Under the pieces are notes generated by a model. It was not told the origin of the DNA. It worked only from the letters and a program-made list of their open reading frames with translations, and did no database searches. From positions 1 to 35,591 of the forward strand of contig NZ_QTQI01000048.1 in the NCBI RefSeq assembly GCF_003853705.1: a stretch of 35,591 nt of DNA, read 5' to 3'. This document shows positions 10,025 through 24,941 of the stretch, one piece after another (within the stretch, counting starts at the first letter, position 1; every line of letters begins with the position of its first letter). This DNA is from Burkholderia sp. Bp8992. Lineage in GTDB: Bacteria > Pseudomonadota > Gammaproteobacteria > Burkholderiales > Burkholderiaceae. Position numbers and translations under genes: made by a program.

Positions 10025-11506
10025 TCAGTCGATCGCGCGCATCGCGTGGCGCAACTCCTGATAGCTGCGCAGCCCCGTGACGCCGAGCTCGCGGCCGATC
10101 CCGCTGAGCCCGAAGCCGCCCCAGCACACGTGCGGGTAGATCAGCTGCGGCGCATTGATCCATACAAGTCCCGCGCGCACGCGCTGCTGGAACTGCTTCG
10201 CAATCTCGGCATCACGCGTGACGACGGTCGCGACGAGCCCGTAGCGCGTGTCGTTCGCGAGCGCGATCGCTTCGTCGTCGGTGCGGAACGATTTCACGCA
10301 CGCGACGGGGCCGAACACTTCGTCGGTCCACAGCGGGTTGTCGGCGGCCGGCTCGGCGATCACGACGGGCGCCATGAAGAAGCCGTCAGCGCCGGTATCC
10401 GCCACCCGTCCGCTGAATGCGACGCGTGCGCCTGCATCGATGCCCTGCTGGAGCATCGCTTCGACGCGCGCACGCTGCGCGGCCGAGATCAGCGGTCCCA
10501 TCGCGACCTGTTCGGCAGCCGGCGGCGCGACGACGAGTGCGCGCACGGCCGTCTCGAACGCCGTCATGAAACTGCGGTAGCGGCTGTCGTGCACGAGGAT
10601 GCGCGCGGTGGCCGAGCACATCTGGCCCGCGTTCGTGAATGCACCGGCGACCGCGAGCGACACCGCGACGTCGAGATCGGCGTCCTCGCGCACGATCAGC
10701 GACGACTTGCCGCCGAGTTCGAGCGTCACGCGCTTCATGTCGACGGCTGCTGCCTGCATCACCTTGCGGCCGGCCGCCGTGCTGCCGGTAAACGAGATCT
10801 TGTCGATCAGCGGATGCGCGGTCAGCGCCGCGCCGACCTCGGCGCCGCCGTTCACGACGTTGACGACGCCGGCCGGCACGCCGGCCTCGACGATGAGGTC
10901 GAGCAGCGCGTGCTCGGTCGGCGACGTGAGTTCGGACGGCTTCAGCACGACCGCGCAGCCGGCCGCGAGTGCGGGCGCGAGCTTCCACGCGGTCGTGACC
11001 ATCGGGAAATTCCACGGCATCACCAGCGCGGCAACGCCGACCGCGTCGTAAAAGCGTTCGGCCGTGACGGCGTCGCTCGGCAGCGCGACGGGCTCGGCCG
11101 CGAACAGCGCCGGGTCTTCGCACAGCTTCGCGTAGTACGCGAACGTCGCGGCGACGTCGCCGACATCGGCGTCGGCCTCGAACGGCGGCTTGCCGCTCAC
11201 CTGCATCTGCAACGCGGCCAGGCGCTCGCGCGCGGCTTCGACGCGCTCGGCGATCGTCGCGAGCACGCGGCCGCGCTCGGCGGGCGGCGTGTCGCGCCAG
11301 CCGGCGAACGCGTCGCGCGCGGCGCGCACCGCGGCGTCGATGTGCGCGGGCGTCGCGAATTCCTGCCAGCCGATCGCGGCACCGGTCGATGCGTCGAAGA
11401 TCGGCGCGCCGGCCGTGTCGGAATGCGTGCGCACCGGCTGGCCGGCGATGCGGGCGGCGGGCAGTATGAAGGTGGTGGCGGTGCGGGAAAGCTCGGCGGT
11501 GGACAT
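10025..11506 (-). CDS. NAD(P)-dependent aldehyde dehydrogenase
   Basis: A 493-residue ALDH-superfamily enzyme. Visible landmarks are P-W-N-F-P (Asn166), K-P-S-E, the F-T-G-S-T cofactor loop, L-E-L-G-G-K with catalytic Glu263, and G-Q-M-C with nucleophile Cys297. It oxidises an aldehyde to the acid in the cytoplasm. It follows the guanidinobutyrase gene by 22 bp on the same strand, so I infer 4-guanidinobutyraldehyde (to 4-guanidinobutyrate) or a related aminoaldehyde as substrate, as for KauB-type enzymes of Pseudomonas arginine catabolism. Two starts are possible: ATG 11515 has a purine tract immediately before it, whereas ATG 11506 has AGGA 9 bases upstream and is preferred. Confidence 0.9.
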   Translation of the reverse strand: MSTAELSRTATTFILPAARIAGQPVRTHSDTAGAPIFDASTGAAIGWQEFATPAHIDAAVRAARDAFAGWRDTPPAERGRVLATIAERVEAARERLAALQMQVSGKPPFEADADVGDVAATFAYYAKLCEDPALFAAEPVALPSDAVTAERFYDAVGVAALVMPWNFPMVTTAWKLAPALAAGCAVVLKPSELTSPTEHALLDLIVEAGVPAGVVNVVNGGAEVGAALTAHPLIDKISFTGSTAAGRKVMQAAAVDMKRVTLELGGKSSLIVREDADLDVAVSLAVAGAFTNAGQMCSATARILVHDSRYRSFMTAFETAVRALVVAPPAAEQVAMGPLISAAQRARVEAMLQQGIDAGARVAFSGRVADTGADGFFMAPVVIAEPAADNPLWTDEVFGPVACVKSFRTDDEAIALANDTRYGLVATVVTRDAEIAKQFQQRVRAGLVWINAPQLIYPHVCWGGFGLSGIGRELGVTGLRSYQELRHAMRAID

Positions 11507-11528
11507 GAGGGTCATCCTGTCGATCGGG

Positions 11529-12479
11529 TTAGCGGTAGGCGACGCCCGGCATCACGCAGAGCATCTCGAACGCGAGGTTCGCGCCCGTGAGCGCGGTCGT
11601 GCCGGCCGGATCGTACGGCGGCGATACTTCGACGAGGTCCGCACCGACGATGTTCAGGCCTTTCATCCCGCGGATGATTTCCAGGCCCTGCTGCACGGTG
11701 AGGCCGCCGATTTCCGGCGTGCCGGTGCCGGGCGCGAACGACGGGTCCAGGCCGTCGATGTCGAAGCTCAGGTAGACCGGCGTATCGCCGACGCGTTCGC
11801 GCACCTGCGCCATCAGCGGCACGAGCGACTTGTTCCAGCATTCTTCCGCCTGCACGACGGTGAAGCCCTGCTGGCGGCACCAGTCGAAGTCGTCCGCATG
11901 GTAGCCGGTGCCGCGCAGGCCGATCTGCGTGACCTTGTCGCATTGCAGCAGGCCGTCTTCCACCGCGCGGCGGAACGGCGTGCCGTGCGCGATCTTCTCG
12001 CCGAACATCGTGTCGTTCACGTCCGCATGCGCGTCGATGTGCACGACCGCCACCTTGCCGTACTTCTTGTGCAGCGCGCGCAGGATCGGCCACGCGATCG
12101 TGTGATCGCCGCCGAGCGTGATCGGCCGGCAGCCGCTCGCGACGATCTCGTCGTAAGCCTCTTCGATGCGGCGCACCGAGTCCTTCAGGTCGTACGGGTT
12201 GGTCGCGACGTCGCCGATATCGGCCACCTGCAGCGAATCGAACGGGGCGGCGCGCGTGGCCATGTTGTACGGGCGCAGCAGCACGGATTCGGTGCGGATC
12301 TGGCGCGGGCCGAAGCGCGAGCCCGAGCGGTTCGACGTGCCGAGGTCGAGCGGCACGCCGACGAAACACACGTCGAGGCCGTCGGTCGTCGCGGCCTGCG
12401 GCAGCCGCATCATCGTGGCGATGCCGCCAAAGCGCGGCATCTCGTTGCCGCCCATCGGTTGATTGAGTTCGCGAGGCAT
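11529..12479 (-). CDS. gbuA: Guanidinobutyrase (ureohydrolase)
   Basis: A 316-residue arginase/agmatinase-superfamily enzyme. Manganese ligands are in place: G-G-D-H-T (His126), D-A-H-A-D (Asp149, His151, Asp153) and S-F-D-I-D-G-L-D-P (Asp240, Asp242). The N-terminal G-G-N-E-M-P-R-F-G-G-I-A-T-M-M-R-L-P and the C-terminal M-L-C-V-x-P-G-V closely resemble, from memory, Pseudomonas aeruginosa GbuA rather than SpeB agmatinase. GbuA hydrolyses 4-guanidinobutyrate to 4-aminobutyrate and urea. AAGGAG lies 7 bases before the ATG at 12479. It is followed at once by the aldehyde dehydrogenase, which would make its substrate. Confidence 0.9.
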   Translation of the reverse strand: MPRELNQPMGGNEMPRFGGIATMMRLPQAATTDGLDVCFVGVPLDLGTSNRSGSRFGPRQIRTESVLLRPYNMATRAAPFDSLQVADIGDVATNPYDLKDSVRRIEEAYDEIVASGCRPITLGGDHTIAWPILRALHKKYGKVAVVHIDAHADVNDTMFGEKIAHGTPFRRAVEDGLLQCDKVTQIGLRGTGYHADDFDWCRQQGFTVVQAEECWNKSLVPLMAQVRERVGDTPVYLSFDIDGLDPSFAPGTGTPEIGGLTVQQGLEIIRGMKGLNIVGADLVEVSPPYDPAGTTALTGANLAFEMLCVMPGVAYR

Positions 12480-12565
12480 GGAGCCGTCTCCTTTTTCCGA
12501 GGTAAAGCGATCGGCCGATGGTAGAGGAGAACGTCCGCGCGAAGATTTTGAAGTCGCAACGTTTA

Positions 12566-12653: not shown

Positions 12654-13538
12654 TCAGCCGGAGATGGCGGGCGGCGTGGTGCCGTCGTGCGGTCCGGCGA
12701 AAGGGAACGCGGCGGTCGCCGAACCCCACGCGGCGAGTTCGCGTTTGGTCCGCACGCCGAGCTTCGCGAACGCGCGCTTCACGTACGACTCGGCCGACGC
12801 GACGCGCACGCCGAGAATCCCGGCGGTTTCGGGCACGGTCTTGCCGGAGAGCAGGTGCTTGCAGGTTTCGTACTCGCGCTTCGACAGCTTCACGCCGTCG
12901 GCCGCGATGCGCGCGTCGAACTGCGCGAGCGGATGGACTTCCGGTGTCGGATGCGCGACGCGCCGCACGGCGGTGGTCGACGCATGCAGTTCGAGCAGCG
13001 GGAACAGCACGTCGCTGATGCTGCGGAAGCGGTTCATCTCGGCGAGCGTGAACGGCGGCCGGTCGCGGCCGCGCTCCAGCGCGATCGAATGCTGCGAATA
13101 GCGCGTGCCGCGTGCCAGCACGCATTCGTGGCCGATATGCACGTCGTCGAACAACCGCTGGCGGAATTCGCCGGGCGGGATCGCCGCGATGTCGCGCACG
13201 ACGAGCATCGTGCCGGTCTTGCCGCGCAACCCCGCGAACAGCGGGTCGCTGTCGAGAAAGCGCTCGTAGTAGAGCGTCATCACGTCGGAGATTTCGCTGG
13301 ATGCGGTGCCGATGCCGCTGCTGCCGATCCATTCGCATCGGTAGCCGGTGGGCATCGTGCCGTCGACGCGCGAGCGCTCGACGTGCGCGACGTCGAGCGG
13401 CACGACGTCGTTCAGCAGTTGCGTGAGGCGCGGCACGAAGTGAGGCGTGCCGACCGTTTCGATCAGCTCGCCCAGCGCCTTGAACGACACGTTGAAGCGG
13501 TCGTTGTCGCGGTGGAAGGGGTTCACGTTGAGCAGCAT
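12654..13538 (-). CDS. LuxR-type (helix-turn-helix) transcriptional regulator 1
   Basis: A 294-residue regulator with a C-terminal LuxR helix-turn-helix (about 210-270). The segment L-S-K-R-E-Y-E-T-C-K is followed by V-P-E-T-A-G-I-L-G-V and A-E-S-Y-V-K-R-A-F-A-K-L-G-V. The N-terminal ~200 residues are an uncharacterised sensor-like region without a recognisable receiver or homoserine-lactone motif. It is a paralogue of the regulator at 17974-18804. It is divergent from the cupin operon, and the shared 26-bp element lies between the two. The ATG at 13538 is chosen over an upstream in-frame start at 13580 because homology to the paralogue does not extend further. It may activate the amine-catabolic units around it. 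Confidence 0.88.
   Translation of the reverse strand: MLLNVNPFHRDNDRFNVSFKALGELIETVGTPHFVPRLTQLLNDVVPLDVAHVERSRVDGTMPTGYRCEWIGSSGIGTASSEISDVMTLYYERFLDSDPLFAGLRGKTGTMLVVRDIAAIPPGEFRQRLFDDVHIGHECVLARGTRYSQHSIALERGRDRPPFTLAEMNRFRSISDVLFPLLELHASTTAVRRVAHPTPEVHPLAQFDARIAADGVKLSKREYETCKHLLSGKTVPETAGILGVRVASAESYVKRAFAKLGVRTKRELAAWGSATAAFPFAGPHDGTTPPAISG
12751..12796. repeat. 46-bp identical segment shared by the two LuxR genes (copy 1)
   Basis: This segment encodes the helix-turn-helix end of regulator 1 and is identical base for base to 18017-18062 in regulator 2. Flanking sequence diverges at once. Confidence 0.85.
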
Positions 13539-13650
13539 GCGGTTCCCCGGTGAAAGGCGGCGCGATTGTAGCGTTCGCAACCGGAAACGTCATTAGGGGG
13601 AAACACCGTCGGTTGTCCTGCCGACCCGCCCGCCCCGCAAAACATCGCTT

Positions 13651-13697
13651 GTCCCCCCCGAAGGGGGGCATACCGGGGCAGTGTAAATGAGTAACTT
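13651..13697 (+). promoter_or_regulatory. Shared operator/promoter, copy A (cupin operon)
   Basis: The element GTCCC-N10-GGGCATACCGG occupies 13651-13676. A -10-like hexamer TAACTT lies at 13692-13697, exactly 15 bp after it. The C and G runs form a 6-bp dyad. It sits between regulator 1 and the divergent cupin operon. A 17-bp spacer would put the -35 on the CATACC part of the element, as for a class II activator. Confidence 0.65.
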
Positions 13698-13735
13698 TGT
13701 CTCTGCTTTTTTCAATCGAGAGACGAACGATTCTG

Positions 13736-14080
13736 ATGACGAAACTGATCAAGGACATCCTGCCGCTGGGCGCAGGCGTGGGCGAATTCACGAAGCTCGA
13801 CTTCGGGATGGACGAAAGCGATTGGCGCGCTGCCGAAGGCAAGAGCGGCAACTACATCATCGGCTGGTGGGAAGGCAAGGCCGGCTCGGTGGAGTTCCCG
13901 GAAACGGCGGCCGACGAAGCGGTGTGGCTCGTCGAGGGCCGGATCGCGCTGACCGACGTCGAAGGCAACCGCAAGGAATTCACGCCGGGCCAGGGCTACC
14001 TGCTGCCGGCCGGCTTCGCGGGCCGCTGGGAGACGATCGAGGACGCGAAGAAGTTCTACGTGCTGCTCGAGAAGTCGTGA
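13736..14080 (+). CDS. Cupin domain protein (DUF861/EutQ-like)
   Basis: A 114-residue single-domain cupin. The C-terminal half shows V-W-L-V-E-G-R-I-A-L-T-D then F-T-P-G-Q-G-Y-L-L-P-A-G-F-A-G-R-W-E. This matches the small cupin_3 family, which often accompanies FAD-dependent amine oxidoreductases in catabolic operons. The usual metal-binding histidines are mostly absent, as in other DUF861 members, so an enzymatic role is uncertain; ligand binding or protection of an intermediate is possible. It is the first gene after promoter copy A. The FAD oxidoreductase follows after about 85 bp. The ATG at 13736 has only a weak GAGA-type ribosome site. Confidence 0.82.
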   Translation: MTKLIKDILPLGAGVGEFTKLDFGMDESDWRAAEGKSGNYIIGWWEGKAGSVEFPETAADEAVWLVEGRIALTDVEGNRKEFTPGQGYLLPAGFAGRWETIEDAKKFYVLLEKS

Positions 14081-14165
14081 TGTCCGAAGCCGCCGCCGTG
14101 GTGTCGTCGTCCGTGCGACGCGAACCCGGCGGCGGTTTCGTTTTTCGCGTGTGATGGCTGGGATC

Positions 14166-15626
14166 ATGGAAATGGAAGTCAACGAAGCAAAACAGACCGC
14201 GCCGGTGCAGGCGCACGCGCTGCGTGACGCGCCGATCGCGCTGGGCGTCGAGGCGGCGCTCGCGAATACGAAGCTGTTCCCGTACTGGCTCGACAACCCG
14301 GCCGCGCCGGCCGCCGAGCCGGAACTCGTCGGCGACGTGACGGCCGACCTGCTGATCGTCGGCGGCGGCTTCACGGGGCTGTGGTCGGCCGTGCAGGCGA
14401 AGGAACAGATGCCGCACCTGAACGTGGTGCTGATCGAGGCCGGCAAGGTCGCGCACGGCGCATCGGGCCGCGCGGGCGGGATCATCTCGACGTCGGTGAT
14501 GCACGGGCTGCCGAATGCGGTGCGCGTGTTTCCGAACGACATCGCGGAGCTCGAGACGTTCGGTCATCACAACCTCGATGGCTTCGAGGAAACGCTGAAG
14601 CGCTACGACATCGACGCCGACATCGAATGGAACGGCGAGATGACGGTCGCGGTCGATCCCGAGCACGTCGCCCACCTGAAGGGCGATTACGACCTGCATC
14701 GCGAGTACGGCCACGACGTCGTGCTGCTGAACCGCGACGAAACGCTCGAACAACTGAATTCGCCGCTGTTCGCGGGCGCGCTGTGGTCGCGCAACCGCAG
14801 CGGCATCGTGCATCCGGCAATGCTCGCGTGGGGGCTGAAGCGCGCGGCGCTGTCGCTCGGCGTGAAGCTATACGAGCACACGCCGCTCACGACCGTGACC
14901 GACGAAGGCAGCACGGTGTTCGTGAAGACGCCGAAGGGCAGCGTGCGCGCGCCGCGCGTCGTGTTCGGCAGCGGCACCGCGAAGGTCGGGATTCCCGACA
15001 TCAACCGCCGCGTGATGCAGGTGCGCGACCACGTGCTCGCCACCGAGCCGCTGACCGACGAGCAGCTCGCGCGGATCGGCTGGAAGAATCGCCAGGGCGT
15101 GTACGACACGCGTACGCAGCTCAACTATTTCCGGCTGACGAAGCACAACAACATCATCTTCGGCGGCCTCGTCAGCTATCACTTCGACGGCGATCCGGAA
15201 CCGCGCCAGGACGGCCGGCGCGAAACCTATTACCGGCTCGCGGAAGCGTTCTACCGCACGTTCCCGCAACTGAGCGACGTGCGCTTCTCGCACGCGTGGG
15301 GCGGCCCGATCGACTACTGTTCGCGCGGCTCGGTGTTCGCGAAGCGCTATCTCGGCGACAAGGCCGTATTCGTCGCCGGCTATACGGGCTTCGGCGTCGC
15401 GGCGAGCCGGTTCGGCGCGTTCATGGGGCTGAACATCCTGTTCGACCGAGACAGCCCCGAACGCAAGCTCGACATCGCGAACCAGAGCCCGAGCTACATC
15501 CCGCCGGAGCCGATGCGCTGGGTCGCCGCGAAGATCACGTTCCATGCGTTCGACGGCGCGGACGCCGAAGGCGGCTGGAAGCGTGCGTGGATCAGCGGCC
15601 TCAAGGCGATGGGCTTCCCGATGTAA
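14166..15626 (+). CDS. FAD-dependent amine oxidoreductase (DAO family, OrdL/PuuB-like)
   Basis: A 486-residue flavoprotein. The Rossmann motif reads L-L-I-V-G-G-G-F-T-G-L-W-S-A (about residue 60), with an acidic L-I-E-A-G at the end of strand 2. The C-terminal FAD segment reads V-F-V-A-G-Y-T-G-F-G-V-A-A-S. Relatives include gamma-glutamylputrescine oxidase and glycine/sarcosine oxidases, which convert C-N single bonds to imines that hydrolyse to an aldehyde and an amine. Together with the aldehyde dehydrogenase and guanidinobutyrase this suggests oxidation of a polyamine or agmatine-like compound; the exact substrate is not visible. The start is uncertain: GTG 14151, ATG 14154, 14166 and 14172 are all in frame with poor ribosome sites. 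Confidence 0.88.
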   Translation: MEMEVNEAKQTAPVQAHALRDAPIALGVEAALANTKLFPYWLDNPAAPAAEPELVGDVTADLLIVGGGFTGLWSAVQAKEQMPHLNVVLIEAGKVAHGASGRAGGIISTSVMHGLPNAVRVFPNDIAELETFGHHNLDGFEETLKRYDIDADIEWNGEMTVAVDPEHVAHLKGDYDLHREYGHDVVLLNRDETLEQLNSPLFAGALWSRNRSGIVHPAMLAWGLKRAALSLGVKLYEHTPLTTVTDEGSTVFVKTPKGSVRAPRVVFGSGTAKVGIPDINRRVMQVRDHVLATEPLTDEQLARIGWKNRQGVYDTRTQLNYFRLTKHNNIIFGGLVSYHFDGDPEPRQDGRRETYYRLAEAFYRTFPQLSDVRFSHAWGGPIDYCSRGSVFAKRYLGDKAVFVAGYTGFGVAASRFGAFMGLNILFDRDSPERKLDIANQSPSYIPPEPMRWVAAKITFHAFDGADAEGGWKRAWISGLKAMGFPM

Positions 15627-15632
15627 GCGACA

Positions 15633-15655
15633 CGGCGGCCCGGGCCGGGCCGCCG
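15633..15655 (+). other. GC-rich hairpin after the FAD oxidoreductase
   Basis: Almost perfect self-complementarity (CGGCGGCCCGG with CCGGGCCGCCG) starts 6 bp after the oxidoreductase stop and has no T tract. It may stabilise or partially attenuate the message before the MFS gene. Confidence 0.45.
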
Positions 15656-15713
15656 CCATACCAAGCTCCCGCGAGGAGACGGTCCGCGCCGCGGACACGG
15701 AGAGAGACATCGC

Positions 15714-16904
15714 ATGAACGTTGTGAATCTGCAGGATGACGCGCGACAGGAAAACGCGCGGTTCGTCGTCGTGATGCTGCTGCTCGGCATCCTCGGGCCG
15801 ACGGTCTTTCTCGGGCTGCCCGCGATCGTCGGGCAGGTCGAGCGCCATTGGGGCTTCGGTGAGGCGGCGCTCGGGCTGTCGAGCTTCATCGAGGTGCTCG
15901 GCGAATCGACGGGCACGCTGCTCGTCGCATTCGTGCTCGGCCGCCAGCCGGTGCGGCTCGTGCTCGCGGGCGCGGTGACGCTCGCGGCCGGCGCGAACCT
16001 CGGCACGCTCGCGACGCACGGGCTCGTCGCCTATTCGACGTTGCAGTTCATCGCAGGCGTCGGCTCGGGCGGGCTGAACGGCATCGCGCTGCGCTACCTG
16101 TCGTATTCGCGCGCGCCGGAACGCAATCTCGGGATCATGCTGATGGGGCAGGTGATGTGGAGCATGGCGCTGCTCGCCACGATCTTCCCGACGCTGAGCG
16201 GCATGTGGGGCGCACACGGCGTGTTCGGCTTCGTCGCGTGCGTACTCGGCATGTTCGTGCTCGCGACGCCGCTGTTCCGCCGCGGCGAGACGATGGCCGC
16301 GCCGACGCCGGCCGGTGTCGCCGGCCGCATCGATCGCAAGGGCGCGATGCTCGTGCTGTGCGCGCAGCTCGCGCTGTACGGCGGCGTCGGCGTCGTGTGG
16401 ACCTTCCTCGAGAAGATCGGCACCGATGCGGGCCTGAGCGGCAAGTCGGTGTCGCTCGTGCTCGGTATCGCGAACGTCGCGAGCCTCGTGATCTGCGCGG
16501 CGATGCCGAAGCTCGGCGCGGGCGCCGGCCTGCGCCGCTGGACGCTCGTGAACCTCGGCGGCTGCGCGGTCGCGGCCGTGCTGCTCGCGATGCCGGCGTC
16601 GGTCGCGACGTTCACGCTCGGCGCGGTCGTGTTCATCGGCTGCTGGACCGGCGGCGCGCTGCTGATCTACGCGACGATTCCGCAGTACGACCTGATCGGC
16701 AAGTCGGCCGCGCTGTCGCCGGGCTGCGTCGCGCTCGGCTATGGCGTCGGCTCGGTCGCGGGCGGTTCGCTGATCGAGAGTGTCGGCACGCAGTCGGCGC
16801 TGATCGCGGCGATCGTGCTGTGCGCGGTGGCGTTCCTCTGCTACGGGCGGCTGCGGCCGGCCGTGTTCGGCATCGAGCGCTCGCTCGCGGCGGCATCGAA
16901 GTGA
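15714..16904 (+). CDS. MFS transporter 1
   Basis: A 396-residue hydrophobic protein with about 12 predicted membrane helices split by a cytoplasmic loop near residues 190-215. An acidic helix motif F-I-E-V-L-G-E-S-T-G lies in the second helix. It sits directly after the FAD oxidoreductase and before a LysR gene on the same strand, with GGAGAGAG just upstream of the ATG. I infer uptake of the operon's substrate or export of a product. The family gives no specificity. Confidence 0.85.
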   Translation: MNVVNLQDDARQENARFVVVMLLLGILGPTVFLGLPAIVGQVERHWGFGEAALGLSSFIEVLGESTGTLLVAFVLGRQPVRLVLAGAVTLAAGANLGTLATHGLVAYSTLQFIAGVGSGGLNGIALRYLSYSRAPERNLGIMLMGQVMWSMALLATIFPTLSGMWGAHGVFGFVACVLGMFVLATPLFRRGETMAAPTPAGVAGRIDRKGAMLVLCAQLALYGGVGVVWTFLEKIGTDAGLSGKSVSLVLGIANVASLVICAAMPKLGAGAGLRRWTLVNLGGCAVAAVLLAMPASVATFTLGAVVFIGCWTGGALLIYATIPQYDLIGKSAALSPGCVALGYGVGSVAGGSLIESVGTQSALIAAIVLCAVAFLCYGRLRPAVFGIERSLAAASK

Positions 16905-17035
16905 CGGGGTTGCGACGCGCGCTGCTGCCGATGGCGGTGCGTGTCGGGTTCGGTTCATCGGCGAAGTCGGCGGGCGGCGCGCGTGAAGCGCGTCGGGCCG
17001 GCCGGGCAACGCGCATTCGCGCAGCGGCTTGAAGC

Positions 17036-17956
17036 ATGTTCTCGAATACTTCAGATCTCGATCTCCGGCTCATCCGGGTCTTTCTGGCCGTCGTCGATGC
17101 ACGCGGCATCACGGCCGCCGAGGCATCGCTCGGCGTGCGGCAGTCGACGATCAGCACGCAGCTGTCGGCGCTCGAGGCGCGTGTCGGCTTCAAGCTGTGC
17201 GATCGCGGCCGCGGCGGGTTTCGCCTGACGTCGAAGGGCGAACGCTTCGCGGCCACCGCACGCACGCTCGTCGCGGCGACCTCTGAATTCGTCGCGCGCG
17301 TGCGCGACATCGACCGCAAGCTGGTCGGCACGCTGTCGATCGGGTTGATCGGCCAGGCGCCGCTCGTCGAGAATGCGCGCGTGGCCGAGGCGATCGGCGC
17401 GTTCCGCAAGCGCGACCAGGCCGTCACGTTCTCGATGAAGGTCGCGTCGCCGCAGGAGCTCGAGGAGAGCCTCGTCAACAACCAGCTCGATCTCGCGATC
17501 GGCTATTTCTGGCATCGCGTGCCGGGCCTGCTCTATACGCCGCTGTTCACCGAGCAGCAGGTGATCTACTGCGGGCGCGGGCACCCGCTGTTCCATGCGT
17601 CGCGGCCCGTGACGGCGGACGACCTGCAGCTTCACGACTGGGTGTGGCGCACCTACCCGGTGCCCGAGGAGCAGTACCCGCTGCCCGAGCGGCGCGTGAC
17701 CGCGAGCGCGGACAGCATCGAGGCCGCGACGATCCTGATCCTGTCGGGCGGTCATCTCGGCTACCTGCCTGCGCACTACGCGGAGCCGTTCGAGCAGCGC
17801 GGGCTCGTGAAGGCCGTCGGCCGCGCGACGTTCAGCTTCGACGTGCCGCTGCATCTCGCGATGAAGCGCAGCACGAGCGACAAGCCGATCGTCGACGCGT
17901 TCTGCGAGGACTTGCTGCGCGCGTTCAACATCAAGGCGGCGGCGCTCGCCGCGTAG
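17036..17956 (+). CDS. LysR-type transcriptional regulator 2
   Basis: A 306-residue LTTR. The helix-turn-helix lies at about residues 8-66 (V-F-L-A-V-V-D-A-R-G-I-T-A-A-E-A and Q-S-T-I-S-T-Q-L-S-A-L-E). A substrate-binding-like effector domain follows, with a D-L-A-I-G-Y-F strand typical of the fold. It is 131 bp downstream of MFS transporter 1 on the same strand, so it may be the last gene of the cupin operon or have its own weak promoter. It converges on regulator 2 with only 17 bp between stop codons. A local regulator on top of the two LuxR proteins suggests layered control. Confidence 0.9.
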   Translation: MFSNTSDLDLRLIRVFLAVVDARGITAAEASLGVRQSTISTQLSALEARVGFKLCDRGRGGFRLTSKGERFAATARTLVAATSEFVARVRDIDRKLVGTLSIGLIGQAPLVENARVAEAIGAFRKRDQAVTFSMKVASPQELEESLVNNQLDLAIGYFWHRVPGLLYTPLFTEQQVIYCGRGHPLFHASRPVTADDLQLHDWVWRTYPVPEEQYPLPERRVTASADSIEAATILILSGGHLGYLPAHYAEPFEQRGLVKAVGRATFSFDVPLHLAMKRSTSDKPIVDAFCEDLLRAFNIKAAALAA

Positions 17957-17973
17957 GCACGCGGGCGGCGCGC

Positions 17974-18804
17974 TCAGCCGTCGACGAGCACCCAGTCGAA
18001 CAGCTCGCGGCGCGTGCGCACGCCGAGCTTCGCGAACGCGCGCTTCACGTACGACTCGGCCGTCGACAGTTTCACGTCGAGCTGCTGCGCGGCCTCGGGC
18101 ACCGAGCGCCCGCACAGCATCAGCCGGCAGATCTCGTGCTCGCGGCGCGACAGCTGCACGTCCTGGCGTTCGAGGCGTGCGTCGAAGCTCGCCTGCGATT
18201 CGACGTTCACCGACACCGCCGCCACGCGCCGCGCCGCGCAGGTGCGCGCATGCAGCTCGAACATCGGGAACAGCAGGTCGACCATCTGGCGGAAGTGGAA
18301 CAGTTCGTCCGTCGTGAACGCGGCGCGCCCGCCGGAGCGCGCGAGGCCGAGTGCGTACTGCAGGTGCGCGTTGCCGTGCACCAGGATGCATTCCTGCACG
18401 ATGCCCGGTTCGTCGAAGATCCGCCGGCGGAACTCGCCTTGCGCGATGCCGTCGACGTGCCGCTGCACGAGCAGCGTGCCGGCCTTGCCGCGCAGCGGCG
18501 CGACCAGCGGGTCGCTCTGGCAGTAGTCCTGGTAGTAGATGTCCATCACGCGCAGCGTATCGGCCGCGAAGCGCAGGCTGCCGCTGCCGAGCCATTCGAC
18601 GACGAAGCCCGACGTGCTGCCCGTGTCCGCGCGCCAGCGTTCGAGGTGCACGGCGTCGGCGTCGATGCTGTCGTTGACGAACTCCGTGACCGCGCCGACG
18701 AAATCCTGCGTGCCGACCGCGCGCAGCGTCGCGCCGAGCGAGTCGGGGCGCACGCCGATCAGGAAGTGGCCGCGGGCGGCCGGGTCGGGCTGGAGAAGTC
18801 GCAT
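17974..18804 (-). CDS. LuxR-type (helix-turn-helix) transcriptional regulator 2
   Basis: A 276-residue paralogue of regulator 1 with the same architecture: about 200 residues of sensor-like sequence, then L-S-R-R-E-H-E-I-C-R, V-P-E-A-A-Q-Q-L-D-V and A-E-S-Y-V-K-R-A-F-A-K-L-G-V-R-T-R-R-E-L. The recognition-helix region is nearly identical to regulator 1, so the two should bind the same or very similar DNA. It is divergent from the amidohydrolase gene with promoter element copy B between them. The ATG at 18804 is chosen by alignment with regulator 1; the open frame continues upstream but lacks similarity. Confidence 0.88.
   Translation of the reverse strand: MRLLQPDPAARGHFLIGVRPDSLGATLRAVGTQDFVGAVTEFVNDSIDADAVHLERWRADTGSTSGFVVEWLGSGSLRFAADTLRVMDIYYQDYCQSDPLVAPLRGKAGTLLVQRHVDGIAQGEFRRRIFDEPGIVQECILVHGNAHLQYALGLARSGGRAAFTTDELFHFRQMVDLLFPMFELHARTCAARRVAAVSVNVESQASFDARLERQDVQLSRREHEICRLMLCGRSVPEAAQQLDVKLSTAESYVKRAFAKLGVRTRRELFDWVLVDG
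18017..18062. repeat. 46-bp identical segment shared by the two LuxR genes (copy 2)
   Basis: Identical to 12751-12796. It encodes the recognition helix region of regulator 2. Confidence 0.85.
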
Positions 18805-18955
18805 GGTCGGGCGGGAGCGGTCAAGGGACAGTAGGACGTTACGCGAACGTCGCGCCCGCGTCAGCCGGGAATCCACCGGATCAACCCCGCGGATTTCGCG
18901 CGTTGTCCCCAAAACGATGACAAGACCGTGCATTCGGAGGCCGGAATTCGCGAAA

Positions 18956-19002
18956 GCCCCCTTGGCGGGGGGGCATACCGGTGCCAATCGTCTGCCTATA
19001 GT
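18956..19002 (+). promoter_or_regulatory. Shared operator/promoter, copy B (amidohydrolase)
   Basis: GCCCC-N10-GGGCATACCGG occupies 18956-18981 and TATAGT lies at 18997-19002, with the same spacings as copies A and C. The C and G runs form a dyad. It lies between regulator 2 and the divergent amidohydrolase gene, and the predicted start of transcription is about 35 bp before the ATG at 19043. Confidence 0.65.
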
Positions 19003-19042
19003 GAAAGCGCTTCGAAAACCTGATGACCACAAAGGACAGGCA

Positions 19043-20767
19043 ATGCAGATTCAACCGACGCAGGCCGCCGCGACGCCGGCGGATTTCGTTCTGATCAACG
19101 CGAAGGTCTACACCGTCGATCCGCACAAGCCGTGGGCGCAGGCCGTGGCCGTGCGCGACGGCCGGATCGTCTTCGTCGGCGACACGGCGGCCGTGCAGGC
19201 ATACGTCGGCGCGCGGACGAAGGTCGTCGATGCGGCCGGCCGGCTCGTGCTGCCGGGCTTCGTCGAGTCGCACTGGCACTTCGAGACGACCGCGTTCGCG
19301 TTCCAGGCGTTCGTGAACTACGAGGATCCGCAGAAGGTGCTCGACGCGTTGCGCACCTACGTCGACACGCATCCGGACGAGCCAGCGATCACCGGGATGG
19401 GCTGGGTGCAGGCGACGATTCCGCCGGCGATGCTGCGCAAGGAGACGCTCGACGCGATCTGCGCGGATCGCCCCGTATGCCTGCTGTCGACCGATTTCCA
19501 TTCGATGTGGGTGAACTCGAAGGCGCTGGAGATCGCCGGCATCGACGCGTCGACGCCGCCCGTGCAGGAAGGCGCGAGCTGGTTCGAGAAGGACGCGGCG
19601 ACGGGCGAGCCGACCGGCCTGATCGTCGACGGCGCCGCGTATTCGTTGCTGTTGCAGCGGATCAGCGCGGCCGGCCTGCTGCCGACCGGCATCGACCTGT
19701 ACCTGAAGTCGATTCCGCCGTGGCAGAAGAAGCTGTGCGCGGCCGGCGTGACGACCGTGTTCGACGCCGGCTTCTTCGACGCGAGCGGCGACCAGTCGCT
19801 GCTGTACGAGACGCTGCAGACGATGGAGCGTGCGGGCGACCTGAAGTTGCGCGTGGTCGGCAGCGTCGCGGTGATCGGCGAGATCGACGACCCGGTCGGC
19901 ACGCTGATCCGGTATCGCGAGCAGTACGATTCGCCGCTCGTGAAGGCGCGCGCGCTGAAGCTGTTCCTCGACGGCACCGAGGCGAACCACACCGCGTACC
20001 TGCTCGAACCGTACGCGGACCGCCCCGACACCTGCGGCGCGCCGACGATGCCGGCCGACACGTTCAACCGCTATCTGGTCGAAGCCGATCGCGCGAACGC
20101 GAACGTGATGGTCCACTGCGTCGGCGACGCAGCGGTGCGGATGGCGCTCGACGGCTTCGACGCGGTCAACCGCTCGAACCCGCCGCGCGACCGCCGCCAC
20201 GTGATCACGCACGCGTTCCTCACGCATCCGGACGACATCCCGCGCTTCCGCCGCGCGGGCGTGATGGCGAACACGCAGCTGCAGTGGGGCGTGGTCGACG
20301 CGTACACCGAGCAATTGCGCGACCACTACGGCCACGAACGCTGGAGCAACATGTACAAGTTCCGCACGTTCCTCGACGAAGGCGTGACGGTGTCGATCGG
20401 CATGGACGGCCTCGCGTGCCAGTGCCGCTGCCAGCACAAGCCGCTCGAACACATCGAGTCGGGCCACACGCGCCAGCTAGCGGGCGAGCCCGACGCGCCG
20501 GTGTTCCCGGACATCGCCGAGCGCCTGAGCATTCCGCAGCTGATCGCCGCATACACGATCCACGGTGCGTACCAGCTCGGGATGGAGCACGAGGTCGGCT
20601 CGCTCACGCCCGGCAAGCGCGCGGATCTCGTCGTGCTCGAGCACGACCTGTTCGAGGTCGGCCAGTACGACATCGGCCGCATCGACGTCGGGCTGACGAT
20701 GATGGGCGGCCGCATCACGCACGTCGGCGACGATTTCGGTGCGCGCACGGGGTTGCAGGCGTCCTGA
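19043..20767 (+). CDS. Metal-dependent amidohydrolase (YtcJ-like, Amidohydro_3)
   Basis: A 574-residue TIM-barrel amidohydrolase. The metal site begins with S-H-W-H (His77, His79). Further landmarks are K-A-L-K-L-F-L-D-G-T (candidate carboxylated Lys), V-M-V-H-C-V-G-D, V-I-T-H-A-F-L-T-H and the late G-M-D-G. The N- and C-terminal beta composite domain is complete (A-V-A-V-R-D-G-R-I-V-F-V-G and G-K-R-A-D-L-V-V-L). YtcJ-like enzymes include N-substituted formamide deformylase, so amide cleavage releasing an amine is plausible. Between the catalytic Asp and the next helix there is an unusual C-Q-C-R-C-Q-H. AAAGGACAGG precedes the ATG. A terminator hairpin at 20829 ends the unit. Confidence 0.9.
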   Translation: MQIQPTQAAATPADFVLINAKVYTVDPHKPWAQAVAVRDGRIVFVGDTAAVQAYVGARTKVVDAAGRLVLPGFVESHWHFETTAFAFQAFVNYEDPQKVLDALRTYVDTHPDEPAITGMGWVQATIPPAMLRKETLDAICADRPVCLLSTDFHSMWVNSKALEIAGIDASTPPVQEGASWFEKDAATGEPTGLIVDGAAYSLLLQRISAAGLLPTGIDLYLKSIPPWQKKLCAAGVTTVFDAGFFDASGDQSLLYETLQTMERAGDLKLRVVGSVAVIGEIDDPVGTLIRYREQYDSPLVKARALKLFLDGTEANHTAYLLEPYADRPDTCGAPTMPADTFNRYLVEADRANANVMVHCVGDAAVRMALDGFDAVNRSNPPRDRRHVITHAFLTHPDDIPRFRRAGVMANTQLQWGVVDAYTEQLRDHYGHERWSNMYKFRTFLDEGVTVSIGMDGLACQCRCQHKPLEHIESGHTRQLAGEPDAPVFPDIAERLSIPQLIAAYTIHGAYQLGMEHEVGSLTPGKRADLVVLEHDLFEVGQYDIGRIDVGLTMMGGRITHVGDDFGARTGLQAS

Positions 20768-20828
20768 CCGGGCATCCCGGCTGACGACGCGGTGACGGAG
20801 GCTTTCGGATGGCTTCCGTGCTCGCGGG

Positions 20829-20860
20829 TCGGCGCATCCGGCCGGAACCGGATGCGCCGA
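20829..20860 (+). terminator. Hairpin after the amidohydrolase gene
   Basis: A perfect 13-bp stem (20829-20841 with 20848-20860) with a 6-base loop is followed by TTGTG. The T tract is weak, but the position, 61 bp after the amidohydrolase stop and just before promoter copy C, fits a terminator separating two units. Confidence 0.65.
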
Positions 20861-20871
20861 TTGTGCGGCGT

Positions 20872-20918
20872 GTCCCCCTATTGGCAGGGCAGACCGGCCA
20901 ATTTCCTCTGGCTACATT
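20872..20918 (+). promoter_or_regulatory. Shared operator/promoter, copy C (binding-protein operon)
   Basis: GTCCC-N10-GGGCAGACCGG occupies 20872-20897 and TACATT lies at 20913-20918, with the same spacings as copies A and B. It lies directly behind the hairpin terminator and upstream of the PotF-like gene at 20980. Confidence 0.62.
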
Positions 20919-20979: not shown

Positions 20980-22095
20980 ATGGCACGGGACTGGAAACAC
21001 CATCTGAGGACGGCATGCGCGGCGCTCGCGCTGGGCGGGTTCGCGTGCGCGGGCACGCCGGTCGCGCACGCGGCTGACGTCGTCAACGTGTACAACTGGG
21101 GCAACTCGATCGGCAAGGCGACGATCGCGAACTTCGAGAAGGCGACCGGCATCAAGGTCGTCTACCAGGAGTTCGATTCGAACGAGACGCTGCAGGCGAA
21201 GCTGCTGTCGGGCACGTCGGGCTACGACGTCGTCGTGCCGTCCGACATCTTCTGGGCGCGGCAGCTGCAGGCCGGCCTCTACCGCAGGATCGACAAGAGC
21301 CAGGTGCCGAACTACGGGCTGCTCGATCCGGAAATCATGAAGGTGCTCGCGAAGGACGATCCGGGCAACCAGTTCGGCATTCCGTGGACCTGGGGCACCG
21401 ACGGGCTCGGGATGAACGTCGAGAAGGTGAAGGCCGCGCTCGGCAACGACGCGCCGCTCGACAGCTGGGCGCTGCTGTTCGACCCGAAGTACGCGCAGAA
21501 GCTGAAGCACTGCGGCGTGTCGGTGCTCGATTCGCCGGTCGATGCGTTCGGGATGGCGTTCATGTACCTGAAGAAGGATCCGAACACGACGAACCCGGCC
21601 GACTACCAGGCCGCATACGAGCTGCTGAAGACGGTGCGGCCGTACATCACGCAGTTCAATTCGAGCAGCTACATCAACGATCTCGCGGGCGGCGACATCT
21701 GCCTCGCGCTCGGCTGGTCGGGCGACGTGAACTCCGCGCGGATCGCGGCGGCTGCCGCGAAGAAGGCGTATCACATCAAGTACGTGATCCCGACCGAGGG
21801 CAGCGCGATGTGGTTCGACATGATGGCGATCCCGAAGGATGCGCCGCATCCGGACGCCGCGCTGAAGTTCGTGAACTTCGTGCTGTCGGAGAAGGAGAGC
21901 GCGAACCTGACCAACGACACGTCGTATCCGTCGGCCGTGCCGTCGTCGCGGCACCTCGTGCGCGCCGAAGTGACGGGTGATCCGGCCGTGTTCCCGCCCG
22001 CCGACGTGATCCGCAAGCTGAACGTCAGCAAGCCGGTTCCGCCCGAGCTGATGCGTCTGCAGAACCGTCTCTGGACGAAGCTGAAGACCGAGTAA
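20980..22095 (+). CDS. Polyamine-type ABC transporter substrate-binding protein (PotF/PotD-like)
   Basis: A 371-residue periplasmic binding protein with a Sec signal (basic start, hydrophobic core, V-A-H-A-A-D cleavage region near residue 31). The mature start V-N-V-Y-N-W-G-N and the later G-Y-D-V-V-V-P-S, P-W-T-W-G-T-D-G-L and A-M-W-F-D are the PotF/SpuD pattern that lines the polyamine pocket. GGAGG lies 5 bases before the ATG at 20980; longer in-frame starts (20809, 20959) lack this. No permease or ATPase accompanies it, so it must work with a transporter encoded elsewhere or serve as a sensor ligand-binder. It heads a unit with the DUF3138 protein and the C45 hydrolase. Confidence 0.9.
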   Translation: MARDWKHHLRTACAALALGGFACAGTPVAHAADVVNVYNWGNSIGKATIANFEKATGIKVVYQEFDSNETLQAKLLSGTSGYDVVVPSDIFWARQLQAGLYRRIDKSQVPNYGLLDPEIMKVLAKDDPGNQFGIPWTWGTDGLGMNVEKVKAALGNDAPLDSWALLFDPKYAQKLKHCGVSVLDSPVDAFGMAFMYLKKDPNTTNPADYQAAYELLKTVRPYITQFNSSSYINDLAGGDICLALGWSGDVNSARIAAAAAKKAYHIKYVIPTEGSAMWFDMMAIPKDAPHPDAALKFVNFVLSEKESANLTNDTSYPSAVPSSRHLVRAEVTGDPAVFPPADVIRKLNVSKPVPPELMRLQNRLWTKLKTE

Positions 22096-22193: not shown

Positions 22194-23777
22194 ATGAAAA
22201 TCAAACACATGACGGCGCTGTGCCTGCTCGCGTTCGAAGCGGCTTCGGCGTTCGCGCACACGTCACCGCAAGCGACCGATGCAAGCAGGATGAAGGCGCT
22301 GCAGGCGCAGGTCACCGCGCTGCAGCAGCAGGTGAACGAGCTGCGCGCGAGCATGCTGGCCGCGAAACCCGCCGGCGCCGCAACGCCTGCCCAGGCCGCA
22401 TCCGGCGGCGCGAAGATCGGCACGATCAATACGGCGGCAGCCGTTGCGCCGGCAGCCGATGCGGCGCCCGCCTTCACGAACGACGACCTGCAGCAGATGC
22501 GCGAACAGATCGCGAACGCGTCGCTGAAGGTCGACTCGCTGCAGGAAGCCGCGACGACCGGCCCGCTCGCGGGCCTGAGCATCACCGGCTACGTCGATCC
22601 CGTCTACCTGTTCAACCGCGCGCAGCGCACGTCCGGCTTCCAGTTCCTGAATCACGATCCGGGCGCGTACGACTACTACAACAGCACGATCGGCGACGTG
22701 TACCTCGACATCAAGAAGACCTTCGGCGTGGGCCCGATGGCGCCGTCGGCGGAGATCGTGATCCAGCCGAACCGCGGCTTCGGCAACGTGTTCAGCAATT
22801 CGCACGGCGGCATCGGCAACAACATCGTCACGCAGGCGCAGGTGAACGTGCCGCTCAGCACGACGCGCACGTTCGAGATCGGCATGATGCCGAGCCTCGC
22901 GGGCTACGAGATGCAGCCGTCGAACCAGATGCTCACGCTCACGCACGGGCTGCTGTACGACTTCAGCGAGCCGGGCAACCTGATCGGCATCGGGCTGAAA
23001 GGCTCCAATGCGGCGATGACGCGCTTCTGGCAGGTCGTGATCGGCAACGAGGTGCTGCGCACGGCCGGCGCGATCGCGAACGCGGCGAACAACACGACCA
23101 AGACCAACTGGACGCCGACGATCACCGCGCGCTTCGACAACGCGACGTCGACGGCGTTCGACTTCGGCATTTCCGGGATGCTCGGCCGGCAGTCGCTGTT
23201 CTCGCCGTGCGCGGTGGCGGGCGGCTACGGCTACCAGTGCAACGGCTCGTCGCCGACTGGCCTCTACAAGTACGTGGAAGCCGACATGACCTATACGCAC
23301 GACAAGACGCAGGTCAACGCGCAGGTCGACTACGGCGAGCTGCAGAAGGGCGCCTGGAACGGCGGCACCGCGCGCTGGTACGGGATGTCGCTGCTCGGCC
23401 ATACGAAGTGGACGACGTCGTGGGTCGGCCGCATGGGCGCGACGCTGCGCTTCGACTACCTGAACAACACGTCGAACGGCGGCGGCGGCACGAACATCCA
23501 GTACGGGCTCGCGGGCGGCAACCCGTCGGTGAACGGCACGAGCGGCTTCGGCATCGATCCGTCGTGCTTCCAGGGTTCGGCGACGAACGGCACCGAATGC
23601 AAGGGCGCGCAGCGCTACGCGATCACGGCAGACCTGTTGTTCTATCCCACGCAGCAGATTACCGTGAAGGTCGAGTACCGCCACGACGCGGCGAACCATC
23701 CGGTGTTCCTGAAGAGCAACGGCACGTACGCGCGCAGCAACGACCTCGCGGGGATGCAGTTCATCTACGCGTTCTGA
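22194..23777 (+). CDS. Outer-membrane beta-barrel protein (DUF3138 family)
   Basis: A 527-residue exported protein. A Sec signal ends near A-F-A-H-T (about residue 22). A short heptad-rich coiled coil (M-K-A-L-Q-A-Q-V-T-A-L-Q-Q-Q-V, about 33-55) and a low-complexity Ala/Pro linker follow. Then comes a long series of amphipathic strands with many aromatic turn residues, and the protein ends in Q-F-I-Y-A-F, the terminal aromatic that signals insertion into the outer membrane. This matches the DUF3138 proteins of Burkholderiales. I infer a porin that brings the substrate of the operon across the outer membrane. Four cysteines in two pairs in the barrel half could form disulphides. Confidence 0.85.
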   Translation: MKIKHMTALCLLAFEAASAFAHTSPQATDASRMKALQAQVTALQQQVNELRASMLAAKPAGAATPAQAASGGAKIGTINTAAAVAPAADAAPAFTNDDLQQMREQIANASLKVDSLQEAATTGPLAGLSITGYVDPVYLFNRAQRTSGFQFLNHDPGAYDYYNSTIGDVYLDIKKTFGVGPMAPSAEIVIQPNRGFGNVFSNSHGGIGNNIVTQAQVNVPLSTTRTFEIGMMPSLAGYEMQPSNQMLTLTHGLLYDFSEPGNLIGIGLKGSNAAMTRFWQVVIGNEVLRTAGAIANAANNTTKTNWTPTITARFDNATSTAFDFGISGMLGRQSLFSPCAVAGGYGYQCNGSSPTGLYKYVEADMTYTHDKTQVNAQVDYGELQKGAWNGGTARWYGMSLLGHTKWTTSWVGRMGATLRFDYLNNTSNGGGGTNIQYGLAGGNPSVNGTSGFGIDPSCFQGSATNGTECKGAQRYAITADLLFYPTQQITVKVEYRHDAANHPVFLKSNGTYARSNDLAGMQFIYAF

Positions 23778-23864
23778 CGACCGGCACGTTCCGATTCATT
23801 CGCATAACGTAACGTGGTCCGGGCCGCGCGGGCCCGGATCTCATTCGACCCAGGAGGTTTGATC

Positions 23865-24941
23865 TTGAAGCTGCACACATTCGCGACCGACATCACCGAT
23901 CCGCGCGAGCGGGGCCGCCTGATCGGCGCGCGCTTCGCGCCGGCGATCCGCGAGACGGTCGCGCGCTATCTCGCGTTCTTCCCGAAGCTCGGCATCGATC
24001 CGCAGCGCGCGCGGGAGATCGGCGAAGCGAGCCTGGCCGCGCTCGACACATGGTGCCCGCGCCTGGCCGCCGAAGTCGAGTCGATCGCCGACGGCGTCGA
24101 CCTGCCGCGCTGGCAGCTCGCGTGCCTGAACGCGCGCACCGAGATTCTGGCGACCGCGCCCGCATCGGCCGAAGGCGAATGCTCGACGACCGTCTACGCG
24201 CCGGCCGGCCCGCACGCACCGCGCACGCTGCAGACGTGGGACTGGCACGACAGCCTCGCGCCGCAGGGGCTGCTGATGCAGTTCGCGACGCCGCAGGGCC
24301 GCACCGTCAAGCTGTTCACCGAATTCGGGATGCTCGCGAAGCTCGGTGTGAACGGCGCGGGGCTCGGGCTGCATTTCAACATCCTGCATCACGCGAGCGA
24401 CAACGACAGCGCGGGCGTGCCCGTGCATGCGATCGCACGGCGCCTGCTCGAAGACGCGACGACGGTGCAGGAGGCGATCGAACTCGCGCGCACCGCGCGC
24501 GTGAGCGCATCGACGGTGCTGACCGTGTTCACGCGGCACGACGCGCACCCGCGCGCGGCAAGCATCGAGCTGAGCCCGTCGGGTGTCGGCGTGGTCGTGC
24601 CGCGCCCGGACGGCTGGCTGCTGCATACGAATCACTTCCTCGATCACGCGTTGAGCGGCGGCGAATGCATGCCCGACAGCTCGACCACGCGCGAGCGCTT
24701 CGCGCACCTGAACGATGTCGTGACGGACATGACGAGCGCCGATGTGCGCGAACGCGCGGCGGCGATGTGCGGTGCGGCCGGCGACGCGGCCGTCGTGTGC
24801 TTCCACCCGGATCCGTCGATGCCGGACACCGAGCGCTGGGAAACGCTGCTGACCGTCGGCATCGATACCGACGCGTGCGCGCTCGACTACGTGGCCGGCA
24901 ATCCGCACGACCTCTCGCGCGACGGGTTCATGCGGTTCTGA
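23865..24941 (+). CDS. C45-family Ntn-hydrolase (acyl-coenzyme A:6-aminopenicillanic-acid-acyltransferase-like)
   Basis: A 358-residue member of the C45 peptidase/acyltransferase family, whose members self-cleave before a cysteine that becomes the N-terminal nucleophile. The predicted nucleophile is Cys106 in E-G-E-C-S-T-T-V-Y, followed by Q-T-W-D-W-H-D and F-T-E-F-G-M-L-A-K-L-G-V-N-G-A-G-L-G, the family core. Members hydrolyse or transfer acyl amides (penicillin acyltransferase, beta-alanyl-dopamine hydrolase). No signal peptide is seen. The start is a TTG at 23865, seven bases after a perfect AGGAGG. It is the third gene of the binding-protein unit and probably frees an amine from an acylated substrate; this is inference. 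Confidence 0.85.
   Translation: MKLHTFATDITDPRERGRLIGARFAPAIRETVARYLAFFPKLGIDPQRAREIGEASLAALDTWCPRLAAEVESIADGVDLPRWQLACLNARTEILATAPASAEGECSTTVYAPAGPHAPRTLQTWDWHDSLAPQGLLMQFATPQGRTVKLFTEFGMLAKLGVNGAGLGLHFNILHHASDNDSAGVPVHAIARRLLEDATTVQEAIELARTARVSASTVLTVFTRHDAHPRAASIELSPSGVGVVVPRPDGWLLHTNHFLDHALSGGECMPDSSTTRERFAHLNDVVTDMTSADVRERAAAMCGAAGDAAVVCFHPDPSMPDTERWETLLTVGIDTDACALDYVAGNPHDLSRDGFMRF

Follow-up and report, generated by a model that had tools for sequence, protein, structure and literature searches.

One operator-promoter module occurs three times in the window, i.e., the whole 35,591-nt stretch of DNA analysed in this study. The three sites are most probably operators for a dimer of the LuxR-type proteins LuxR1 and/or LuxR2, at which the dimer would act as a class II activator (estimated probability about 0.8, based on sequence comparison). 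The geometry of operator, -35, and -10 fits this type of activation, which had been proposed in an earlier sequence-only reading of the same DNA.

Operator-promoter module and its gene context

A scan of the window for GYCCC-N10-GGGCAKACCGG returned three exact matches, all on the plus strand, and thereby recovered the three copies of the 26-bp pattern described in the sequence-only reading: operator 1 (13651-13676), operator 2 (18956-18981), and operator 3 (20872-20897). The operator has the form of an imperfect inverted repeat, with GYCCC as the left half and GGGCAKACC as the right half, and no further copies were found in the whole window at up to 3 mismatches. Against the three exact matches observed, between 9e-4 (Markov order 0) and 5e-5 (order 3) are expected by chance over orders 0-3, an expectation that has to be read with the pattern being a post hoc one. 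When 3 mismatches were allowed, shuffled sequences contained 1.81 matches on average and 27 of 100 shuffles reached three, which amounts to no separation from chance; it is the exact-match expectation, unlike these shuffles, that sets the signal apart. For the operator combined with the -10, 40 order-2 random chains yielded no match at up to 2 mismatches (three observed), and a mean of 1.6 (largest 5) at up to 4 mismatches (five observed).

Each operator is followed on the plus strand by a -10-like TAnnnT hexamer, namely, TAACTT (13692-13697), TATAGT (18997-19002), and TACATT (20913-20918), and the distance from the first G of GGGCA to the start of the hexamer is 26 bases at all three sites, as had been claimed. 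The hexamer at the -35 position, separated from the -10 by a 17-base spacer, is CAKACC, a poor -35 that lies inside the operator, in line with the proposed overlap of the ACC element with the -35. A sigma-70 scan found a consensus promoter at none of the three sites, and gave two consensus-like matches in the window against 1.3 expected by chance. Of these two, ATGACG-17-TACAAT is present on the minus strand at 13565-13593, just before luxR1, and could be luxR1's own promoter. The possibility that operator 1 serves the luxR1-agmatinase direction was rejected, as TAnnnT is absent at the mirror position.

Operators 1 and 2 are each flanked by a LuxR-type gene and the operon divergent from it, in agreement with the sequence-only reading, and operator 3 is located where 212 bp separate the amidohydrolase gene from the binding-protein gene. 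Both regulator genes, luxR1 (12654-13538, minus strand) and luxR2 (17974-18804, minus strand), point opposite to the operons. On the plus strand, operator 1 precedes an operon that starts with a cupin gene (Cupin_3; 13736-14080) and continues with an FAD-dependent oxidase of the DAO family (14151-15626; no NCBIfam model above cut-off), an MFS transporter (15714-16904; family model match), and a LysR-type regulator (17036-17956). Operator 2 precedes an amidohydrolase (Amidohydro_3; 19043-20767, plus strand). Operator 3 precedes, on the same strand, genes for a PotF-like polyamine-binding protein (20980-22095; 387 bits with the PotF model, below the equivalog cut-off of 636), a DUF3138 protein that also matches the porin model BBP2 (22194-23777), and a C45 family hydrolase (23814-24941; above the model cut-off). 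Behind luxR1 and on its strand, an agmatinase gene (11529-12482, minus strand; TIGR01230 and PRK02190 above cut-off), which no operator faces, and an aldehyde dehydrogenase gene (10025-11515, minus strand; none above cut-off among the 25 models listed) are found. The substrate of the locus is likely a polyamine; it is termed likely because the substrates were taken from family models, several of which scored below their cut-offs. The window falls in the Burkholderia cepacia complex: LuxR1 is 97% identical to its Burkholderia arboris orthologue, and a B. arboris replicon matches the 15-kb region at 95.4% identity.

With a transcription start assumed 7 bases downstream of the -10, the centre of the operator would fall near -43, similar to that of a lux box. 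A LuxR dimer bound at this position would cover the poor -35 (CATACC or CAGACC) and touch or recruit RNA polymerase, by which it would compensate for the weak -35. LuxR1 and LuxR2 would share the operator, since their recognition helices are nearly identical, and their ligand would be a polyamine or a polyamine catabolic product rather than an AHL. In the presence of substrate, PotF-like uptake, the porin, the oxidase, the amidohydrolase, and the C45 hydrolase would then be switched on together. It is improbable that the LuxR proteins are instead repressors at these sites that are released on ligand binding. EsaR is a precedent for a LuxR-type repressor, and operators that overlap the -35 can repress, so that repression is compatible with the geometry alone; a centre near -43 combined with a very poor -35 and no consensus promoter in the sigma-70 scan is, however, the arrangement of an activator.

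Conservation of the module in Burkholderia and related genera

Regions were taken from 30 Burkholderia genomes, 10 of which lacked the cluster (no match at E 1e-20 in nine, and only a 35% dehydrogenase match in one), probably since these stretches had been centred on a chance match. The resulting alignments, with the window included, comprised 18, 14, and 14 rows for operators 1, 2, and 3, respectively. In the same order, the number of varying columns was 22/28, 22/28, and 18/28 in the upstream flank, 0/5 in each left half, 3/10, 6/10, and 3/10 in the operator centre, 0/9, 1/9, and 0/9 in GGGCAKACC, 6/17, 10/17, and 4/17 in the 17-bp spacer, which is free of gaps, and 1/6, 0/6, and 0/6 in the -10. 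All 14 aligned rows of operator 2 contain its 24-bp core together with TATAGT as the -10, and all 14 of operator 3 contain its core together with TACATT. This combination of constant length, constant contact blocks, and changing letters in between is characteristic of a site that is bound by a protein and coupled to a promoter.

The wider set of LuxR1 orthologues was assessed from the best 80 of 121 relatives, corresponding to 73 distinct loci, 64 of which carry a LuxR1 orthologue (at least 70% identity); some of their genomes are also in the set of 30. The divergent cupin is present in 58 of the 64 loci, which belong to Burkholderia, Paraburkholderia, and Caballeronia. In these 58 loci, the 24-bp operator 1 is exact in 55 and has one mismatch in three, and a -10 is found in its place in all (49 TAACTT, 4 TAACGT, and 5 CAACAT), i.e., the distance from the right half-site to the -10 is fixed in 58/58. 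The hexamer CAACAT, which deviates from TAnnnT, was observed in Paraburkholderia/Burkholderia loci L127, L130, L131, L132, and L134. Conservation upstream of orthologous operons, the check attached to the sequence-only reading, was thus confirmed in the aligned rows as well as in the wider orthologues.

Among the six cupin-less loci, the operator is exact in one (L111), and the others have 1 (L093), 2 (L098 and L160), 3 (L113), or 4 (L114) mismatches, with TAnnnT absent from the -10 place in all of these five. The contrast between exact and inexact operators with and without the cupin is significant (Fisher 4e-5, for rows that are related by descent), although a one-base difference is all that L093 has, likewise the three cupin-keeping loci. 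This contrast suggests that the operator serves the operon rather than the regulator gene. L111, with its exact operator, is apparently a recent deletion and has the agmatinase in pieces. In L093, L098, L113, and L160, the luxR1 frame is intact and free of stop codons despite the inexact operator, the altered -10, and the loss of the cupin.

In relatives, two elements of the described pattern held in part. The constant 10-bp spacing applies to the three sites of the window, and gives way to half-site spacings of 9-11 in relatives; likewise, the last GG of the ACCGG element is not conserved. What stays fixed among relatives is GGRCAKAC, the right half, together with its spacing to the -10.

Candidate regulators and the wider LuxR family

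LuxR1 and LuxR2 have the recognition stretch AESYVKRAFAKLGVRT in common, in accordance with the near-identical recognition helices noted before, and are 45% identical overall. Both have a C-terminal GerE helix-turn-helix, and 42 of 42 rows of the family alignment match PF00196. The N-domain of LuxR1 has the fold of an AHL receptor in its predicted structure, and Pfam Autoind_bind gave no match in the LuxR proteins. The set of AHL-contacting residues (TraR W57, Y61, D70, W85, and G113) is incomplete: the Y and D are kept as Y90 and D98, W85 and G113 correspond to V114 and E138 (by profile mapping to a CepR-like protein, with a possible one-residue offset), and W57 precedes the aligned block by one residue, which places it, if the alignment is extended, opposite V86. 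E138 is invariant in the family at the position of the pocket glycine. No luxI gene was found adjacent in a LuxI-family scan of three genomes (G001, G028, and G004), in which the LuxI-family matches were on other contigs or, once, about 170 kb away (G004). From their sequences and the predicted structure, LuxR1 and LuxR2 appear to be LuxR solos that do not respond to an AHL and are linked to the use of polyamines.

Operator 1 is kept in five genomes in which luxR2 is missing from the retrieved stretch (L061, L062, L075, L076, and L078), and no LuxR2-like match was seen elsewhere in these genomes in the family search; LuxR1 alone can therefore suffice there, as judged from gene content. Conversely, a LuxR2 relative is divergent from an amidohydrolase in L150, L151, and L154 (Paraburkholderia and Burkholderia sp. 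Ax-1719), where the site consists of the left half TGTCCCCCC or TGCCCCCCC, then GGGCAGACC, and then TACATT. A corresponding site between luxR and a PotF-like gene in L152 (P. domus) has TACAGT as the -10. In a FastTree tree without support values, these four proteins fall into one group with LuxR2, next to the clade of LuxR1. A second, imperfect site that faces luxR, with TAnnnT 26 bases on, was observed at L150:5937, L151:5903, and L154:5938, and possibly indicates autoregulation.

Few genomes carry a member of the family, as its profile gave a match at 1e-14 in 5 of the 369 examined in the class; in the nearest genome compared, six family members were found with the LuxR1 query and seven with another query. 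Two paralogues are each encoded divergently from another PotF-like gene, with the conserved sites TGTCCCGGTTTTCGGGACTGAC...TACATT and TGTACGGATTTCATGGACAGAC...TACAGT. In the alignments of these two paralogues, L179 (42% identity) could not be aligned, a few rows differ in the half-sites, and three rows have TAGAGT or TAAAGT as the -10 hexamer. The pattern was then relaxed on two paralogue sites (L051 and L052) into a 16-point score, which was run on 17 family loci. A score of at least 15 within 216 bp of luxR was obtained in six of the 17 (L051, L052, L053, L056, L057, and L236), of which L053, L056, L057, and L236 are out of sample, and L056 and L057 are from one genus. No site with a score of at least 15 was found in 199 kb of family loci away from luxR or in 199 kb of background, and six luxR-adjacent sites would arise by chance with a probability of 1.5e-6 if sites were evenly spread. 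L056 has an additional overlapping score-14 match on the opposite strand.

In the remaining 11 of the 17 loci, a score-15 site was not found beside luxR: the best score outside the gene is 13 in L054 and L239, and nothing of at least 13 was found outside the gene in L050, L055, L155, L157, L159, L237, L238, L240, and L242. Scores of 13 inside the luxR gene occur in L238, L239, and L242 (luxR ends are rough in L237-L239 and L242, where they come from partial matches), and distant score-14 matches are present in L240, before a PotF-like gene 4.7 kb from luxR, and in L238. In L054, the half-sites form a perfect palindrome, TGTCCCC-N6-GGGGACA. The LuxR proteins of L056 and L057 are about 24-25% identical to LuxR1, and the module there (L056:2029-6308 and L057:1558-5809) stands before glutamine-synthetase-family, PotF-like, FAD oxidase, and cupin genes, an operon that resembles the Puu-type gamma-glutamylation route. 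At L236:6051, the score-15 site points away from a luxR relative and towards the gene of an aromatic-hydroxylase-like FAD monooxygenase, not towards an amine gene. For the LuxR3 class, to which LuxR2 is closer (61%) than to LuxR1 (45%), the operator is absent beside the gene (L050:5975-6802 and L157); this class may act in trans.

The LysR-type regulator encoded at 17036-17956 was considered as the protein that binds the three sites and activates from them. Its gene sits in the cluster and also occurs, among the loci listed, in Paraburkholderia and Caballeronia loci with LuxR1 and the oxidase, and LysR activators, too, occupy DNA that lies upstream of the -35 and extends into it. Nevertheless, the right half-site with its -10 spacing is present in L150, L151, L152, L154, L051, L052, L056, and L057, and no homologue of this LysR protein was found in the 12-14 kb examined there. 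The module together with luxR in the absence of LysR supports a link of the site to the LuxR family rather than to LysR, and the adjacency of the module to luxR genes would otherwise be left unexplained. A role of LysR as the activator is, hence, very unlikely.

For the LuxR proteins, a broader and tentative scenario is possible, in which a branch with the quorum-sensing fold became a dedicated polyamine-sensing family with a matching operator and spread as a portable module. The helix Y-x-x-RAF-x-KL would pair with TGYCC-N9..11-GGRCAKAC, locked 18 bases from the -10, and the module would wire different amine operons, three of them in Burkholderia, to one ligand, with the invariant acidic E138, in place of the former lactone-pocket glycine, perhaps contributing to its binding.

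Regulon extent and comparison with known systems

The size of the regulon was assessed in 12 genomes, picked from 37 of the genus for carrying the locus. The 24-bp operator has 36 exact matches in these genomes, 34 of which are at this locus: triplets in 11 genomes account for 33, and one is in G018, where luxR2, the amidohydrolase, and the PotF gene are absent from the retrieved stretch. The other two are stray, and the reversed pattern, used as a control in the 12 genomes, matched once. The exact 26-bp pattern was found in 7 of 300 genomes of the order, i.e., at this locus in G001 and G018, and in five genomes outside the genus. A genome scan with two mismatches was set aside as mostly noise, with counts of the same order for the real and the reversed pattern. 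Based on the strict pattern, the predicted regulon is local and consists of three promoters, whereas weaker sites would escape; the local regulon put forward in the sequence-only reading agrees with exact matching in the 12 locus-bearing genomes, which confines the operator almost wholly to the locus. It is hardly credible that GGGCAKACC-N17-TAnnnT, instead of being an activator site, serves an alternative sigma factor as its promoter. Although the right half and the -10 rank among the least variable parts, the left half-site is equally invariant (0/5 columns in three alignments), the half-sites of L054 form a perfect palindrome, and the operator is almost confined to the locus in 12 genomes, unlike a sigma regulon.

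Few LuxR solos have a known ligand. The operator described here, its promoter geometry, and the few candidate targets would provide a defined reporter from which to start ligand screening, and the paralogue series with differing operators (GGGCA, GGACA, and TGACA) may help to read how the LuxR helix chooses its DNA. Experiments can now be directed at the sequence that the family probably binds and at the genes that it probably controls.

The closest parallel in promoter architecture is the lux box, at which class II activation by LuxR/TraR/CepR-type proteins is centred near -42.5. It is likewise an inverted repeat of about 20 bp that overlaps the -35, a predicted one in the present case, at a fixed distance from the -10, and its regulators likewise have a GerE helix-turn-helix and the AHL-receptor-like fold predicted here. 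By eye, the operator sequence TGYCC...GGRCAKAC appears to be unlike the lux box consensus. AHL-responsive LuxR systems differ further, as the pocket residues here suggest no AHL and no luxI is adjacent in the three genomes scanned. For VqsR of Pseudomonas aeruginosa (structure 5xhx), the identity is 14%, and its targets presumably differ from those here. AguR is a regulator of the LuxR class. It is reported to activate the agmatine deiminase genes in Enterococcus (PMC3796520); it is likewise linked to agmatine catabolism, and differs in being a Firmicute regulator of another pathway. The -10 hexamers found here are in keeping with the TAnAAT given for promoters of Burkholderia cenocepacia in a start-site paper, the main text of which does not contain the words 'agmatinase', 'putrescine', or 'LuxR' (PMC4603805).

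The nearest functional counterparts are PjeR and PolR, subgroup E LuxR solos that are encoded beside polyamine transport genes in Pseudomonas (Bez et al. 2021, PMC8546723). In that study, putrescine, spermidine, or spermine reportedly did not induce the tested promoters, the ligand, operator, and targets are described as not known, and PjeR has E at the G113 position; the 2021 solo survey reported there found neighbouring promoters to be most often outside the control of the solo (PMC8546723). The G-to-E pocket change of PjeR also occurs here (invariant E138), as compared by description and not by sequence, and LuxR1/LuxR2 have the polyamine gene context and the altered AHL pocket in common with PjeR and PolR as these are described. 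No description of the operator was found in the literature search, which covered mainly titles and abstract openings, and subscription journals thinly. This kind of system is known, and its operator, geometry, and regulon are new as far as we have seen; different from PjeR and PolR as these are described, an operator-promoter module and its target operons are defined here by comparison.
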